Below, piece by piece: positions 6,834-53,368 of a DNA stretch of 61,435 bases. The position numbers and the translations under genes were made by a program. This stretch comes from Candidatus Yanofskyibacteriota bacterium (GTDB lineage Bacteria > Patescibacteriota > Minisyncoccia > 2-02-FULL-40-12 > IGHO2-01-FULL-4-A): NCBI GenBank assembly GCA_903897805.1, contig CAIUCV010000021.1, positions 1 through 61,435 on the forward strand, written 5' to 3'. The stretch's first letter is position 1, and the number at the start of each line of letters is the position of its first letter. A model generated the notes under the pieces. That model was not told the origin of the DNA, did not search any database, and was given only the letters and a program-made list of their open reading frames with translations.

Positions 6834-7000
6834 TAGACAGGGCAAGTAATCGCTTTATAGCACCGTCAAAAGGGTGGATTGCACGGTTTGATTGAAGTAA
6901 AATATTTCTTCACTTCAATCAAAATCCACGCTTTTGACGGAATGCGGCAACCTCGCTGGGGTTGCAAGTGGTGATAGAAAGCGATTACTTGCCCTGTCTA
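6834..7000 (+). repeat. Structured palindromic element, family A copy 1
   Basis: The 167-bp element is closed by a 23-bp perfect inverted repeat (TAGACAGGGCAAGTAATCGC and its complement). Inside are a middle stem (CCGTCAAAAG / CTTTTGACGG), a terminal stem (TTGATTGAAGT / ACTTCAATCAA) and a side hairpin (GCAACC-TCGCT-GGGGTTGC). Conserved unpaired pieces are TATAGCA, GATTGCACGGT, GGAATGC and AAGTGGTGATAGAA. The reverse complement of 30673-30828 shares these pieces while the stem sequences differ, so pairing is preserved by compensatory change. There is no ORF. It fills the gap between gatA and the next gene. Confidence 0.85.
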
Positions 7001-8175: not shown

Positions 8176-8362
8176 GCAACCCGCCTGATTTTTCTGACTC
8201 TATCTGCCGACTAGCAAATTGACGAGTTGAGCGTATATTGTTCCGTATGAAATATGCGGGTCGCGAAGCAGGAATGGATAACCGCATATTTCCAGGAACA
8301 ATAGCTCAACGAGGATAATTTGCAGAAAGGCATGATACCGGAAGAAAAATCAGGGGGGTTGC
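8176..8362. repeat. Long imperfect palindrome upstream of comEC
   Basis: 187 bp. The left arm begins GCAACCCGCCTGATTTTTCT; the right arm ends AGAAAAATCAGGGGGGTTGC. Inner arms include GAACAATA(TAC)GCTCAAC and CCGCATATTT pairings. Arms match over most of their length with small bulges. The right arm runs to 12 bp before the comEC ATG. An apparent 68-codon minus-strand ORF here is a by-product of the palindrome. Confidence 0.85.
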
Positions 8363-16958: not shown

Positions 16959-17426
16959 ATGCGCAAACCACTAAAGAAAAAAAATATAGTTGAGCCGGAT
17001 TTTAAATATTCATCGCCGCTGGTGGCCGTTTTTATCAACAAGATAATGAAGGAGGGGAAGAAAAGCGTTGCCGAAAGAATTGTCTATCACGCCCTGGAAA
17101 GGGCCGAAAAGGAATTGGGCAAACCGGCGCTGGAGGCGCTTGATACGGCAATAAATAATGCCGGTCCCCAGCTGGAATTAAAATCCCGCCGCATCGGCGG
17201 AGCCAATTATCAGATTCCCTATGAGGTGAAGGGCGAGCGAAAAATAGCTCTCGCGATGAGATGGATAATTGATGCGGCAAGAAGCGGGAAGGGCAAACCG
17301 ATGGAGGAAAAATTGGCGCAAGAAATCGTAAATGCCTGCAACAATACCGGGGCGGCGATTAAAAAGAAGACGGATACCCACAAGATGGCCGAAGCAAACA
17401 AGGCATTTGCACACTTTGCTTGGTAA
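16959..17426 (+). CDS. rpsG: 30S ribosomal protein S7
   Basis: 155 residues, standard uS7, which nucleates the 30S head and binds near the E site. Motifs: KIMKEGKKSVAERIVYHAL, SRRIGGANYQIPYEV, KIALAMRWIIDAAR and the C-terminal HKMAEANKAFAHFAW. It starts 14 bp after rpsL. The stop is at once followed by a 215-bp palindromic element that separates it from the next genes; fusA lies 650 bp on. Confidence 0.98.
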   Translation: MRKPLKKKNIVEPDFKYSSPLVAVFINKIMKEGKKSVAERIVYHALERAEKELGKPALEALDTAINNAGPQLELKSRRIGGANYQIPYEVKGERKIALAMRWIIDAARSGKGKPMEEKLAQEIVNACNNTGAAIKKKTDTHKMAEANKAFAHFAW

Positions 17427-17640
17427 AAACCGAGGTATTGCCAATTTTTTCTTATGTTCTCTGCGCAGACAAATGTTATTCAAATTTTCTTATTTTCTGT
17501 GATAAAAAATCGTACCCCTTCCGTCCCTCGCTACGCTCGGGACTACGTCCCAATTTTTTATCAGAAGGAAAATATCAAAAATTTGAATACATTTGTAACT
17601 GCTCGTTCAGAAAAGAAAAAATTGGCAATACCTCGGTTTT
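17426..17640. repeat. Long palindromic element, family B copy 1
   Basis: 215 bp. The outer stem AAAACCGAGGTATTGCCAAT pairs with ATTGGCAATACCTCGGTTTT; a second stem follows after a bulge (left GCGCAGACAAATG, right CATTTGTAACTGCTC). The terminal region ATCGTACCCCTTCCGTCCC .. GGGACTACGTCCCAATTT is nearly identical to that at 52718-52927, where the stems have other sequences. No ORF. Confidence 0.85.
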
Positions 17641-17690
17641 AAAAAGGAAAAGCCCGCATTTCCACCGAAGTGTACTTTGCGGGCAGAGAG
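17641..17690 (-). terminator. Intrinsic terminator (minus strand)
   Basis: GCCCGCA .. TGCGGGC followed by TTTTCCTTTTT on the minus strand, at the end of the small membrane protein gene 17704-17913. Confidence 0.7.
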
Positions 17691-28785: not shown

Positions 28786-29120
28786 CAAAAAAAGGACCCC
28801 GGGGGAGATGGCAACGCCGTGCATGATGCACGCTCGCTGCGCGCCGTCTCCGGCCGGGGTATGCAGGTCCTCATCCTCTTCGTAACCTGGCCGTCTTTCA
28901 CAGCCGTCACAGTGACGGGGGACAAGACGGACTACGGGGAAATTCCGCCGGGCCGTTTCGAATCAGCCCCGACGTAGGCTAGGTTGCCGATCCCGCAATC
29001 GGCGTGGCGCCCGCCCCACGTGACACGTGATGGGGGCTGGACCCTACCTAGGAGGAGTTCCTTGCTGGAAACGATGGGTTGTTATCACTTCCACCAAGTA
29101 ACCCCTCCTATTCCTAACCA
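28786..29120 (-). ncRNA. Candidate structured ncRNA 2 (about 335 nt)
   Basis: Promoter TTGACA-N18-TACACT (29156-29127) and a long terminator hairpin (GGACC..ACCCCGG / CCGGGGT..GGTCC, about 28794-28870) with TTTTTTTG. No ORF with a start site. The 5' domain begins GGAATAGGAGGGGTT and closes with AACTCCTCCTA. Many strong internal stems (CCCGTCACTGTGACGG). The promoter resembles that of candidate 3 (GGCTTGACAATGCCTAG in both), but the body is more divergent. Identity unknown. Confidence 0.6.
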
Positions 29121-29126
29121 AATTCA

Positions 29127-29156
29127 AGTGTAGCAAAATGGTCTAGGCATTGTCAA
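29127..29156 (-). promoter_or_regulatory. Promoter of ncRNA candidate 2
   Basis: Minus-strand TTGACA (29156-29151), 18-bp spacer, TACACT (29132-29127). Confidence 0.85.
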
Positions 29157-29217
29157 GCCCCTAAGCTCAAACTATCAAAAACCATTGATTTTGCTGGTAA
29201 TTTTGCTGGATTTTTAA

Positions 29218-30672: not shown

Positions 30673-30828
30673 GGATCGGCAATGCCTTCTATCACCACTT
30701 GAATCCCCAGCGAGGATTCTGCATTCCGTCAAAATTGTGGATTCTGGTTTTGTTGAAAAGAGATATTTTAACAAAACCAGACCGTGCAATCACACAATTT
30801 TGACGGTGCTATAAGGCATTGCCGATCC
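30673..30828 (-). repeat. Structured palindromic element, family A copy 2
   Basis: 156 bp closed by GGATCGGCAATGCCTT / AAGGCATTGCCGATCC. Read on the minus strand it matches the copy at 6834-7000: TATAGCACCGTCAAAA, GATTGCACGGT, AATCCAC, TTTTGACGGAATGC, CCTCGCTGGGG and AAGTGGTGATAGAA are shared, whereas outer stem, terminal stem (CTGGTTTTGTT / AACAAAACCAG) and side hairpin (GAATCC..GGGGATTC versus GCAACC..GGGGTTGC) differ on both sides so that pairing holds. Confidence 0.85.
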
Positions 30829-33454: not shown

Positions 33455-33503
33455 TTTGCCACAGCAGAGAGCGCCTTGGGCGGACTTTCTCTGCTGTGGC
33501 AAA
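33455..33503 (+). promoter_or_regulatory. Strong hairpin in the 5' leader of the DGR target gene
   Basis: TTTGCCACAGCAGAGA pairs perfectly with TCTCTGCTGTGGCAAA, with inner GCGCC / GGCGG. It lies 73 bp before the start codon and has no T-run, so it is more likely an mRNA-stability or translation element than a terminator. Confidence 0.75.
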
Positions 33504-33575
33504 GCGAAGGCTGAGCCAAATCAAAACAGCGCAACGGACGTGTTCCGAAAGAACGTGTCCAAAGGAGAACGTGTC

Positions 33576-34253
33576 ATGTTTGACAAGTTTACTTTCAGTA
33601 GTGCCGGTGAAGTTCAAGAGGTAGAATTCGCTCTAGCTAGGGCGTGCTATACCCACCCCGAGGTCAAAGAGTTGTCGAAGGGCGATCTCTTGGGCCAGGT
33701 CCGCCAAATCATCCTTGGCCAAGCCGTAATCAAGCCGGTGGCCGAGGATGCCACTCGGGAGATCACTCTCAACGAAACCACGATCGTGGTGAACCTTGGT
33801 GCCGCACCTAAGCTACCATTCAATGGAGCAGAGGTCGAGAGCCACGCCGGCGAGGGTTGGGCTATCGTCGAGAAGAGTCCCGACGGATTGTATGTGAACG
33901 GCCGCAAGGTCGTATTGCATCTGTCCCGTCGGCAGCAGAATGGCAAGTCGCTCAAGGGCTACGAGCTTCGTGAAGAGCTGACGGGTAAGCCCGTACTCAA
34001 CGCGAATCTGCTCGACACGCTCGCAGACAACTCCCACCTCATACCCGAGGACTGGAAGAAGGACGAGCAGGGTAACACCCGCTACATCTTCTTCTGGGGC
34101 ACCATTTACCGCAGCTCGCGCGGCCACCTCTGTGTCCGCTATCTGTATTTCCACGTTGGGATGTGGGATCGGTACTACGACTGGCTTGACTACGACTGGC
34201 ACGGCAGCCGCCCCGCGGCTCTGCTCGCAAGTAGTAGGTCCTTGGACTTTTGA
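33576..34253 (+). CDS. DGR target protein with variable C-terminus
   Basis: 225 residues from the ATG at 33576, preceded by AAAGGAG. Residues 1-175 are constant (MFDKFTFSSAGEVQEVEFAL, VLNANLLDTLADNSHLIPEDW, TRYIFFWGTIYR). Residues about 178-218 are the variable repeat: aromatic framework residues (VRYLYF, MW, DW, WL, PAALLA) alternate with residues that in the template are Asn. This is the pattern of DGR targets, in which the variable residues sit on a C-type-lectin-like binding surface in characterised cases. No signal peptide is seen. The last residues (SRSLDF) and the stop come from a CCTTGGAC micro-repeat. Codon use is more GC-rich than in neighbours, suggesting separate origin. Confidence 0.9.
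   Translation: MFDKFTFSSAGEVQEVEFALARACYTHPEVKELSKGDLLGQVRQIILGQAVIKPVAEDATREITLNETTIVVNLGAAPKLPFNGAEVESHAGEGWAIVEKSPDGLYVNGRKVVLHLSRRQQNGKSLKGYELREELTGKPVLNANLLDTLADNSHLIPEDWKKDEQGNTRYIFFWGTIYRSSRGHLCVRYLYFHVGMWDRYYDWLDYDWHGSRPAALLASSRSLDF
34107..34230 (+). repeat. DGR variable repeat (VR)
   Basis: 124 bp at the 3' end of the target gene. Aligned to the template (34623-34746) without gaps, it has 16 mismatches, all at template A (A to C, G or T), and none at the roughly 90 non-A positions. The last 20 bp (CCCCGCGGCTCTGCTCGCAA) are identical in both and would serve as the initiation-of-homing region. Confidence 0.95.
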
Positions 34254-34300
34254 ACCTTGGGTCCTCTTGGACCCTTGGAACTTGGTCCTTGGAGCCGGCA
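34234..34300 (+). repeat. CCTTGGAC / CTTGGAAC micro-repeat array
   Basis: Degenerate direct and inverted units GGTCCTTGGAC, GGGTCCTCTTGGACCC and TTGGAACTTGGTCCTTGG right after the VR. It supplies the target gene's stop codon at 34251-34253. Confidence 0.65.
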
Positions 34301-34337
34301 ATTTTGCCGAAACGCTTTCCAGATATGCGTTCAACTG

Positions 34338-34376
34338 GAACCCTGCATGAAGTCTTGTGCGGGGTTTTTACTTTTT
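34338..34376 (+). terminator. Intrinsic terminator of the DGR target gene
   Basis: AACCCTGCA and TGCGGGGTT (one G-T pair) around ATGAAGTCTTG-type loop, followed by TTTACTTTTT. Confidence 0.8.
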
Positions 34377-34403
34377 GATTTAATTTTGTGTTAAGATGTG
34401 TTT

Positions 34404-34445
34404 GGCAGTAGGCGAATATGTGGGAGATTACGGTTTCCTGCTGCC
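34404..34445 (+). other. Hairpin upstream of the DGR template
   Basis: GGCAGTAGG pairs with CCTGCTGCC around a 24-nt loop, in the non-coding 247 bp between target-gene terminator and template. No convincing sigma-70 promoter for the template RNA was found here. Confidence 0.5.
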
Positions 34446-34622
34446 GAACCCAGTATCCATACATTGAGAATATCTCCGACCAAGGTTTGAGATAGAGTGA
34501 TGTATGCAGAAACTTCAAAAATGAAGCTACTTGGTATAGGATGCTAGGGCATTACGATGCCGAATACGATACAGCCTTGAGAGTTATTCAATGGGCAGTG
34601 GCAAGGAAGGCATTCTATACGC

Positions 34623-34746
34623 AACCGCAACTCGAACGGCAACCTCTATGTCCGCTATCTGTATTTCAACGATGGGATGTGGAATCGGAACTACAACTGG
34701 CTTGACAACGACTGGAACGGCAACAACCCCGCGGCTCTGCTCGCAA
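34623..34746 (+). ncRNA. DGR template repeat (TR)
   Basis: 124-bp template. In the target's reading frame it contains 12 Asn codons (11 AAC, 1 AAT), all of which are altered in the variable repeat, plus a TAT and a GAT that are altered. 34 adenines, 16 replaced. In DGRs the TR is transcribed, copied by an error-prone reverse transcriptase that misreads A, and the cDNA replaces the VR. A hairpin with a T-run follows 12 bp after the TR. Confidence 0.95.
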
Positions 34747-34752
34747 CTTACT

Positions 34753-35112
34753 TCATTTCTCTCCCTTATTGGGAGAGTTTTGTTTTTGTAGCTGGCCATA
34801 CCAGCCACCGAGCATCCTGCCAATCTCGTCTATTTTTACGGATAGAGCTATATATTTCTTATTGTCCAAAGACTTGGTTTCCCAGAGTATCATCAAGAAT
34901 ATTTTTAATGTATCAACTTTTCTTATTGCTAGGCGGACATACGGTAGCTTTTCTTCACGCACCAAGAAACTAGCGGTTGCCAGTGCTTCTATGATTTCAA
35001 CGAAGAGAGCATCAATTCTGACGCCAAGCGAGTGCCTATGTGTTTTGGGTATAATTTGATAATATTCATACCAAAGCAAATAAGCACTTTTTACTTTCTG
35101 AAGCAGAGGCAA
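34753..35112 (-). CDS. avd: Avd-like four-helix-bundle protein of the DGR
   Basis: 119 residues, the size of the accessory variability determinant. Predicted four helices: LLQKVKSAYLLWYEYYQII, LGVRIDALFVEIIEALATAS, LPYVRLAIRKVDTLKIFLMI and KKYIALSVKIDEIGRMLGGW. The Avd family forms a positively charged barrel that binds the reverse transcriptase and template RNA and is needed for mutagenic homing. The start is TTG at 35112, since a 12-C tract and a stop lie just upstream; no Shine-Dalgarno is visible. The gene is on the strand opposite to target, TR and RT, and converges on the TR. Confidence 0.85.
   Translation of the reverse strand: MPLLQKVKSAYLLWYEYYQIIPKTHRHSLGVRIDALFVEIIEALATASFLVREEKLPYVRLAIRKVDTLKIFLMILWETKSLDNKKYIALSVKIDEIGRMLGGWYGQLQKQNSPNKGEK
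34759..34787. terminator. Hairpin with T-run just after the TR
   Basis: CTCTCCC-TTATT-GGGAGAG followed by TTTTGTTTTT. It can end the template RNA on the plus strand, and overlaps the last codons of the minus-strand avd gene. Confidence 0.8.
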
Positions 35113-35117
35113 GAGCT

Positions 35118-35129
35118 GGGGGGGGGGGG
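35118..35129 (+). repeat. Poly-G(12) tract between avd and the RT gene
   Basis: Twelve consecutive G lie 19 bp before the RT start codon and 5 bp before the avd start on the other strand. By far the longest G-run noticed in the window; candidate for slippage-based variation, or a sequencing artefact. Confidence 0.85.
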
Positions 35130-35147
35130 CTTAGAAGAGGTATTTTT

Positions 35148-36137
35148 ATGAAAATCCAATTGGCTCATAATTATGAGTATATCATTTCTCTTGAAAATCT
35201 CCTTAATGCATGGAAGGAGTTTATTAAAGATAAAAAATTAAGGAAAGATGTGCAAATTTTTGAACTGGATCTGATGGGCAATATCATTTCGCTCCACAAC
35301 GATCTTGCCGCCAAAATATATAAGCATTCACCGTATCAGCCATTCAATATCTCAGATCCCAAGCCAAGAAAAATACACAAAGCTAGCGTCAGGGATCGGC
35401 TATTGCACCACGCTATATATCGGGCACTCTATCCATTTTTTGACAGAACTTTTATATCCGATTCTTATTCTTGCAGACTAAACAAAGGGACGCACAAAGC
35501 CATAAATAGGTTCTGTAATTTTGCATATAAGGTATCACAAAATCATAAGAAAACTGTGTGGGTTCTCAAGTGCGATATTAAAAAGTTTTTTGCTTCAATT
35601 GACCAAGATATTCTAGCCGAAATCATTAGAGATTATATACCCGACCCAGATATTGTCTGGCTTATCTCTCGAATCATCAGGAGCTTTTACTCAACGAATA
35701 TTGGTGTCGGTTTGCCCTTGGGAAATCTAACCTCACAGCTTCTGGTTAATATCTATATGACTAGGTTTGACCAATTTGTGAAGCATACACTAAAGGCAAA
35801 ATACTATATCCGCTATGCTGACGACTTTGTTATTTTATCTCCAGACAAAAAATGGCCTGAGGAAACAATTCCAAAAATCAGAGATTTTTTATGGAATAAA
35901 CTTCATCTTCAGCTACATCCAGATAAAGTATCAATTCAAACACTAACATCTGGTGTCGATTTTCTCGGTTGGGTGCACTTTCCAAACTACAGGGTTTTGA
36001 GGACCACAACCAAAAAGAGAATGTTTAGGAATATAAAAAATAAACAAGGGAATATAAATACGGTGCAATCTTATCTTGGGCTTATTAGTCATGGAAACTC
36101 AAGAAGATTAGAAGCAAGATTAGGGATTACCGATTGA
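35148..36137 (+). CDS. DGR reverse transcriptase
   Basis: 329 residues, typical of DGR reverse transcriptases and without maturase or endonuclease domains. AGAAGAGG lies 7 bases before the ATG. Palm motifs: KCDIKKFFASID (about residues 141-152, first catalytic Asp), LGNLTSQ (191-197), which is the DGR-type [IVL]GxxxSQ in place of the QGxxxSP of retroviruses and group II introns, and RYADDFVIL (222-230) with the catalytic DD. A thumb region with FLGWVHF follows. It copies the TR into A-mutagenised cDNA. A TATAAT at 35050-35055 inside the antisense avd gene could be its -10 box. Confidence 0.95.
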   Translation: MKIQLAHNYEYIISLENLLNAWKEFIKDKKLRKDVQIFELDLMGNIISLHNDLAAKIYKHSPYQPFNISDPKPRKIHKASVRDRLLHHAIYRALYPFFDRTFISDSYSCRLNKGTHKAINRFCNFAYKVSQNHKKTVWVLKCDIKKFFASIDQDILAEIIRDYIPDPDIVWLISRIIRSFYSTNIGVGLPLGNLTSQLLVNIYMTRFDQFVKHTLKAKYYIRYADDFVILSPDKKWPEETIPKIRDFLWNKLHLQLHPDKVSIQTLTSGVDFLGWVHFPNYRVLRTTTKKRMFRNIKNKQGNINTVQSYLGLISHGNSRRLEARLGITD

Positions 36138-36169
36138 GAGCATAGAGTAGTATAATTATTAAAAACGCA

Positions 36170-36313
36170 GTCGTAATGCCTTTTGGGCATTCCAGCGAGC
36201 GGATTGCTTGGTTAATTTTTGATATAATGTTTCGGCATCAAAAATTAAATCCGTGAGCTGAAATAGCGTAGCCGCCGCTGGAGCGGCGGAGCGTGCCCAG
36301 AAGGCATTATGAC
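36170..36313. repeat. Structured palindrome after the DGR (possible family A relative)
   Basis: 144 bp closed by GTCGTAATGCCTTTTGGGCA / TGCCCAGAAGGCATTATGAC. Contains a terminal stem TTAATTTTTGAT / ATCAAAAATTAA, a side hairpin GCCGCCGCT / AGCGGCGG and the words CCAGCGAG and GGATTGC seen in family A. The overall layout is similar but the core is not the same. Confidence 0.7.
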
Positions 36314-36337
36314 GGAGTTTGTAATTTAATTCAAGAA

Positions 36338-52702: not shown

Positions 52703-52717
52703 GATTAGTTTTTAAGA

Positions 52718-52927
52718 AGCTTTGCCAATCTCTGATTTCCTTTCAGCATTTCGCAGGCAAATAATATTCTGATTTTCTCATTTTTCTGGATGAAAAAATC
52801 GTACCCCTTCCGTCCCTCGACAAGCTCGGGACTACGTCCCAATTTTGTTCATCAGCGAAAAATTTCGAAAATCATCATTTATTTGCACTGCTCTATTTGA
52901 ATGACGGAAATCAGAAATTGGCTCCGC
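52718..52927. repeat. Long palindromic element, family B copy 2
   Basis: 210 bp. Outer stem GCCAATCTCTGATTTCC / GGAAATCAGAAATTGGC; bulges CGCAGGCAAATAA (left) and TTATTTGCACTGCTC region (right); terminal region TCGTACCCCTTCCGTCCCTC .. GCTCGGGACTACGTCCCAAT, as in 17426-17640. Stem sequences differ from copy 1 on both arms. Confidence 0.85.
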
Positions 52928-52941
52928 TACGTAAAATTAAA

Positions 52942-53267
52942 AATAAAAAAGCCGGGGTTACGTCACAACGTCCCGGCTACGAGCTGCAAAGATCCCCGCC
53001 TTTACTGCGCGAGGCCCACTAGAGAGGCCACCTAAGTGGACTGTCTACTTGGGAGTCATGTCCCGGGCTGCCGTCGCAGTCCTGACTCATCCATGCAACC
53101 TGGCCATGATTGCGTATATAAAACGGTATAATTAGTAAAGAGCCGGCCGGAGGAGGAGTGGGGTAAGGTGGGCATGAGCCGAATCCCCGCCCGCATCCGA
53201 AGGAAAGGAGCACGTTCTGGCCTGCAGTTCCTCGCGATGGTCGAGCCCCCAGTTCCTCCTCTAGCCT
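52942..53267 (-). ncRNA. Candidate structured ncRNA 3 (about 326 nt)
   Basis: Promoter TTGACA-N18-TATACT (53303-53274); terminator AGCCGGGACGTTGTGACG..CCCCGGCT with TTTTTTATTTTT (52977-52942). No ORF with a start site. The 5' domain ACAGGCTAGAGGAGGAA..TGGGG is closed by CCCCACTCCTCCTCCGGCC, then GGCTCTTTAC..ATTATACC, all resembling candidate 1 (7671-8015), so the two appear homologous with a compensatory change in the closing stem. Function unknown. Confidence 0.65.
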
Positions 53268-53273
53268 GTTTTA

Positions 53274-53303
53274 AGTATAGCATAATCGGCTAGGCATTGT
53301 CAA
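53274..53303 (-). promoter_or_regulatory. Promoter of ncRNA candidate 3
   Basis: Minus-strand TTGACA (53303-53298), 18-bp spacer, TATACT (53279-53274). Confidence 0.85.
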
Positions 53304-53368
53304 GCCCTCGGTTGAAAATTGCCAAAAACCCTTGATTTTGCAAGGATTTTGAGGTATTTTGAGAAAAT

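Follow-up and report, generated by a model that had tools for sequence, protein, structure and literature searches.

A structured, multi-copy intergenic repeat family of ~165 bases in Ca. Yanofskybacteria and related Patescibacteria

The bcr1 repeat of the Bacillus cereus group is a mobile element with target duplications. It is 167 bp long and occurs in 31 intergenic copies that share a structure (PMC2267715). REP sequences are hairpins of 20-40 bp that carry a short motif tag and are tied to RAYT (PMC3733652, PMC2817692); REP/REPIN systems with RAYT are dispersed, non-coding, extragenic and folded, and are thought to be non-autonomously mobile (PMC3116915, PMC8266576). MITEs (ERIC, NEMIS and similar elements) are short and non-coding, possess palindromic ends, and are mobile as judged by site comparison. 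The attC sites of integrons combine conserved ends with a variable centre and have an integron integrase nearby, and the structured non-coding RNA classes collected in Rfam display the covariation and conserved loops that are typical of functional RNA.

In this work, a 61,435-nt stretch of DNA (hereafter, the window) was analyzed together with related genomes, and two matched stretches within it are copies of an unnamed DNA repeat family of ~165 bases, here termed family A. The repeat is multi-copy and intergenic, its position differs between related species, and its copies adopt one conserved three-way-junction fold. No Rfam 15 family scored above its gathering score in the window or at 20 other loci, the best permissive Rfam matches on copy 1 being chance hairpins, and literature searches returned no account of the repeat. 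The family is thus new to Rfam; as a structured extragenic repeat it is of a broad, known kind. In size, copy number, intergenic location and common predicted secondary structure it resembles bcr1 and similar stem-loop repeats, with which no sequence or Rfam relationship was found; it differs from them in the three-way junction, in bulge and loop motifs that are fixed, and in an outer stem (P1) whose sequence varies by copy. With REP/REPIN elements it has in common a dispersed, non-coding, extragenic and folded character; the ~165-nt unit is unlike a REP, and a Y1 gene is neither adjoining nor always present. Short non-coding units, palindromic ends and presence or absence at orthologous sites are shared with MITEs, whereas the ends of family A have common pairing rather than the common sequence of terminal inverted repeats, and no target duplication was seen at the inspected junctions. 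On inspection, the attC arrangement is reversed, with variable ends around a conserved centre. The level of covariation and the conserved loops are similar to those of Rfam structured RNAs, none of which matches.

The first-pass annotation of the window had reported two copies in opposite orientation that share unpaired motifs and whose stems differ in sequence and still pair. Their coordinates and orientation were verified (inverted pairs I1, I3, I11 and I12), the shared motifs are present in both, and GCAACC/GGTTGC and GAATCC/GGATTC, although unlike in sequence, each form a stem. A third, more diverged copy, overlooked in that annotation, was found with the covariance models R1 (built from 37 copies) and R2 (built from 69 diverse copies); it begins 28 nt past the end of a reverse transcriptase ORF. 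The copies, and the parts of copy 1, are as follows.

6834..7000, plus strand: copy 1, whole element, exact location (158.7 bits with R1, 146 bits with R2)
6834..6856, plus strand: P1 outer stem, 5' arm, copy-specific sequence; pairs with 6978-7000 (inverted repeat I3)
6861..6864, plus strand: CACC, below the three-way junction, with its partner GGTG at 6970-6973 (RNAalifold consensus; helix 2 pair counts)
6865..6938, plus strand: P2 arm with GTCAAAA/TTTTGAC, GTGGATT/AATCCAC and a distal hairpin (helices 3 and 4, 24 of 24 pairs double-sided)
6881..6886, plus strand: conserved 6-nt bulge GCACGG, family consensus GCAYGG (alignments; recurs in other Patescibacteria)
6947..6965, plus strand: P3 hairpin GCAACC-TCGCTGG-GGTTGC with the conserved cap CTCGCTGGG (cap nearly invariant, stem covarying)
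6978..7000, plus strand: P1 outer stem, 3' arm (fold and inverted repeat)
30673..30828, minus strand (sense on the minus strand): copy 2, whole element (145.5 bits with R1)
36165..36316, plus strand: copy 3, diverged member (70.3 bits with R1, 91.9 bits with R2)

The family consensus is a three-way junction with the arms P1, P2 and P3, whose sense strand runs TATAGCACC ... GGTGATAG. P1 comprises ~14-25 bp of strongly copy-specific sequence, and inward of it lie an ATAG/ATAG internal loop, the CACC/GGTG helix and the junction. P2 bears the GCAYGG bulge and frequently a tandem G-A mismatch, and its terminal loop is AGTATAAT in many subfamilies; P3 is the capped hairpin. Some copies are truncated and others carry insertions, and at three loci (L039, L043 and L051) family A copies are nested in the arms of another family A subtype, the TTTGTCAAYGAYC type. 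An internal promoter at the AGTATAAT loop was rejected on inspection, since the -35 spacing is wrong and the loop is absent from some subfamilies.

The predicted fold of copy 1 has an energy of -91.6 kcal/mol, as compared with -41.9 +/- 3.8 kcal/mol for dinucleotide shuffles (z -13; 0 of 200 shuffles reach it). The antisense strand folds almost equally well, and folding energy alone cannot name the strand, because long inverted repeats fold on both. Among 37 close copies, double-sided compensation was observed in 30 of 48 pairs. In the alignment of 69 diverse copies, which was fitted to the model and is hence biased toward structure, albeit with a very large margin, both sides change in 45 of 48 pairs (934 cells versus 248 +/- 19 after shuffling), 95.5% of cells are paired as against 35-44% once the partners are slid by 1-3 columns, and the covariation score is 0.757 versus 0.21 after shuffling. 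All covariation measures exceed 500 of 500 shuffles and every slid control. The covariation proposed from the two initial copies is therefore real and spans a large family, and the view that these are not chance palindromes is borne out. Preservation of the fold by matched mutations suggests a function for the folded strand.

As to which strand this is, G-U pairs outnumber A-C juxtapositions in the model-aligned helices (120 versus 37, one invariant U-G pair left out; 70 versus 16 for P1 alone), and a model-free P1 count in the closest copies gave 32 versus 18 (p 0.065), all of these being events that are not independent, as copies share descent. Since the excess lies on the sense strand, this strand is probably, though not certainly, the one that is folded and selected, as RNA or as single-stranded DNA; selection on a folded single strand, as proposed in the first-pass annotation, is favored by these counts together with the covariation. 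The persistence of pairing while the P1 sequence diverges is held with moderate confidence.

Copies of family A reach up to ~37 per genome in tiny uncultured bacteria. A plain DNA search returned ~5 copies in the genome of the window and, for one related genus, 10-15 in each genome, and the covariance models, whose E-values are rough owing to a shortened calibration, returned 8 in the former and many in relatives, with paired changes. The copy-rich hosts are Ca. Yanofskybacteria and their kin: G001, G002, G005, G006, G007, G010, G011, G013, G016 and G022 contain 13-37 copies each, with fewer in other families. Across most of families f1 and f4 there are 8-37 copies per genome, with scattered copies beyond and traces elsewhere in Patescibacteria; under strict filters, 11 of 380 genomes sampled across the phylum yielded matches. 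Other architectures in this wider sample retain the GCAYGG bulge and a CGCTGG cap. Beyond Patescibacteria, pattern matches occurred in other phyla, none of them confirmed by the covariance model. Four viral contigs match the sequence pattern, at the pattern level only.

Orthologous sites were compared mainly with G005, a largely complete relative (contig C2 was compared over 20 kb, 72 kb of one contig being left out). Empty sites in G005 correspond to copies in G000, G002, G006 and G007, among them L020, L037, L044, L047, L048 and copy 1 of the window. P1 is missing from these empty sites as well, so it belongs to the inserted unit, and pre-existing hairpins as insertion targets were rejected on the same grounds; the DNA searched yielded no empty P1 hairpin. 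At a few other loci both species carry a copy (L009/L055, L022/L058, L021/L032, L002/L051). L002 is copy 2 of the window, and L051, from another genus, has the same neighboring genes. Between L009 and L055 the flanks agree as far as P1; P1 and the core are different in sequence, and pairing is intact in each. In the closer pair G010/G013, 10 syntenic sites hold the same element in three cases, a different family member in four (two of them inverted), and another hairpin family, no element or unrelated genes in one case each. In genus g3, P1 stems that are ~50% identical, both of them paired, enclose cores of up to 98% identity (L040 versus L021). Where class I copies have core identities of at least 93%, their mean P1 identity is 0.63; a value of 0.97 is reached only within class II. 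Such near-identical cores in different stems would be explained by core exchange, and we read the site patterns as exchange of cores between resident copies combined with insertion and loss. No target-site duplication was evident by eye at the inspected junctions, the species being too diverged for exact junctions to be set. Two further observations concern individual loci. In the orthologous copies L117:8022-8178 and L124:8439-8596, P1 is identical and the P2 tip is wholly different yet paired, as if a helix had been swapped. L054:2372-2529 (G002:C6) is a family A copy with large insertions, antisense within a 23S rRNA gene, and a GIY-YIG-like ORF occupies the matching place in G005.

The order was profiled for Y1 transposases, GIY-YIG nucleases, reverse transcriptases and TnpB, and none of the four both tracks copy number and adjoins copies. 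TnpB (PF07282) was detected in 0 of 45 genomes of the order and in 6 of 14 control genomes; a TnpB-type guide RNA of an IS200/IS605 derivative is accordingly not supported. A GIY-YIG nuclease as the linked enzyme is not supported either, as it neither follows copy number nor is linked in cis. Reverse transcriptases are present in most copy-rich genomes and likewise in most others, with a family A copy at just 2 of 21 reverse transcriptase loci searched, and a reverse-transcriptase-linked element (DGR or retron) is not supported: the enzyme beside copy 3 serves a diversity-generating retroelement with its own TR/VR. This retroelement occupies 33456-36137 of the window (VR of the target gene 34108-34230, TR 34624-34746, reverse transcriptase ORF 35148-36137), and its TR/VR differences coincide with TR adenines.

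Taken together, we interpret family A as a non-autonomous, repeatedly mobilized intergenic repeat of ~165 bp, a complex REP/MITE-like element, with a probability of roughly 0.5. High copy number, covariation, empty or replaced sites, insertion of P1 together with the core, near-identical cores in different P1 stems, the lack of alignment with host transcripts, the G-U excess and unrelated neighbors favor this reading. Against it stand the lack of a mobilizing enzyme among those profiled and of target-site duplications at the inspected junctions, a P1 far too variable for a classical terminal inverted repeat, and the weak model-free G-U test. Moreover, the pairing retained in old-looking copies (L009/L055) points to selection in place, something for which a parasite would have no use. 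The main and serious rival, tentative in our estimate, is a host-functional structured element at gene ends (a terminator, an insulator or an mRNA 3'-end stabilizer) that spread by recombination and is selected at each locus. It would account for this retained pairing as P1 diverges, for the hairpin of another family at one orthologous site, for strong stems that end in A/T-rich flanks, and for the location of copies at a median of 27.5 nt from a stop codon versus 88.5 nt from a start, distances that, like the gene directions, rest on naive ORF calls. However, the sense strand runs with the gene direction in 25 cases and against it in 39, so the co-transcribed orientation is not in excess, and the surrounding coding bias opposes the sense strand (62 against, 38 with, p 0.02); these orientation data speak against a function within the neighboring mRNA. 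Across copies the sense strand leans toward the C-rich strand (Wilcoxon p 0.0003; 63 of 101 loci), a tendency that cannot be separated from gene direction, and no clear replication-strand bias was seen in G005. Furthermore, T amounts to 42-54% at positions 7-11 beyond the 3' arm with no uniform run, gene association is not conserved (in few-copy genomes the neighbors are unrelated housekeeping genes), many sites are empty in relatives, and a simple terminator could dispense with the three-way junction and its fixed loops.

The RNA-like junction, G-U tolerance, tandem G-A mismatches and conserved loops would also suit a dispersed family of trans-acting small RNA genes, an unlikely explanation given that flank composition reveals no conserved upstream promoter, that copy number and sites vary among related species, that some copies are truncated or interrupted, and that there is no Rfam relative. 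More doubtful still is the maintenance of perfect palindromes through template-switch repair or arm-to-arm conversion, with no selection on the fold: the two P1 arms match very well in nearly all copies and whole stems seem to change jointly (the P2 tip of L117/L124), yet such repair is strand-symmetric, in conflict with the G-U excess on one strand, and it leaves the fixed motifs and the conserved junction unexplained. Least probable, and disfavored here, is a REP/REPIN system driven by a resident Y1 (RAYT-like) transposase. Y1_Tnp matches are present in G000, G002, G005, G006, G007, G010, G013 and G018, but Y1 (PF01797) was undetected in the copy-rich G001 (37 copies), G016 (13) and G022 (24), no R2 match was found at 30 Y1 loci with 1.5-kb flanks, and the fold is unlike a REP hairpin. 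The IS200/IS605-like enzyme suggested initially thus finds no support; of the proposal that the element is a transposase or recombinase substrate, the folded strand stands, and the role as an enzyme substrate is a candidate one, no mobilizing enzyme having been found among those profiled.

Under the preferred reading of a mobilized repeat, the sense strand, as single-stranded DNA or RNA, would be recognized by a trans-acting enzyme through the GCAYGG bulge, the AGTATAAT loop and the CTCGCTGGG cap; P1 would need only to pair, its sequence being free, and cores would swap between resident copies, probably through recombination or gene conversion. A bolder and rather doubtful extension would make this a mobile element of a new class: its ends would have to pair, whatever their sequence, its conserved folded core would pass from one copy-specific stem to another by movement or exchange and be read as a single strand by a Patescibacteria enzyme, and several unrelated families of the window (A, B and C) would share the design. 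Although the genomes of Patescibacteria are reduced and contain little intergenic DNA, some of them carry dozens of copies of a large folded element absent from RNA databases. If mobile, the repeat implies a single-strand-handling enzyme still to be found in Patescibacteria; if a host RNA, it is an abundant uncharacterized structured element. With the covariance model and a catalog of which sites are empty and which occupied, both ideas become testable.

Other repeats occur in the same DNA. A second family of the same plan, with a conserved core TCGTACCCCTTCCGTCCC..GGGACTACGTCCCAATTTT within a long stem of differing sequence, is located at 17414-17652 and ~52713-52920 of the window and has 7 matches in the same genome. 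A third structured family lies at 8176-8362 (..TCTGCCGACTAGCAAATTGACG..GGAATGGATAACCGC..AGGAACAATAGC.. inside 29-nt arms), with relatives in G005 (L149:4631, L057:2721). A small hairpin family with the core GCAGTTGRCGGCGACAGTCCGACAC and variable stems was observed at L231:1370, L288:3721, L025:191 and L402, and one of its copies stands in place of a family A element at an orthologous site. Finally, a 47-nt direct repeat ending in GGCATTGTCAAGCCC is found at 29114-29160 and 53261-53307 of the window, and a further repeat comes after it at each position.
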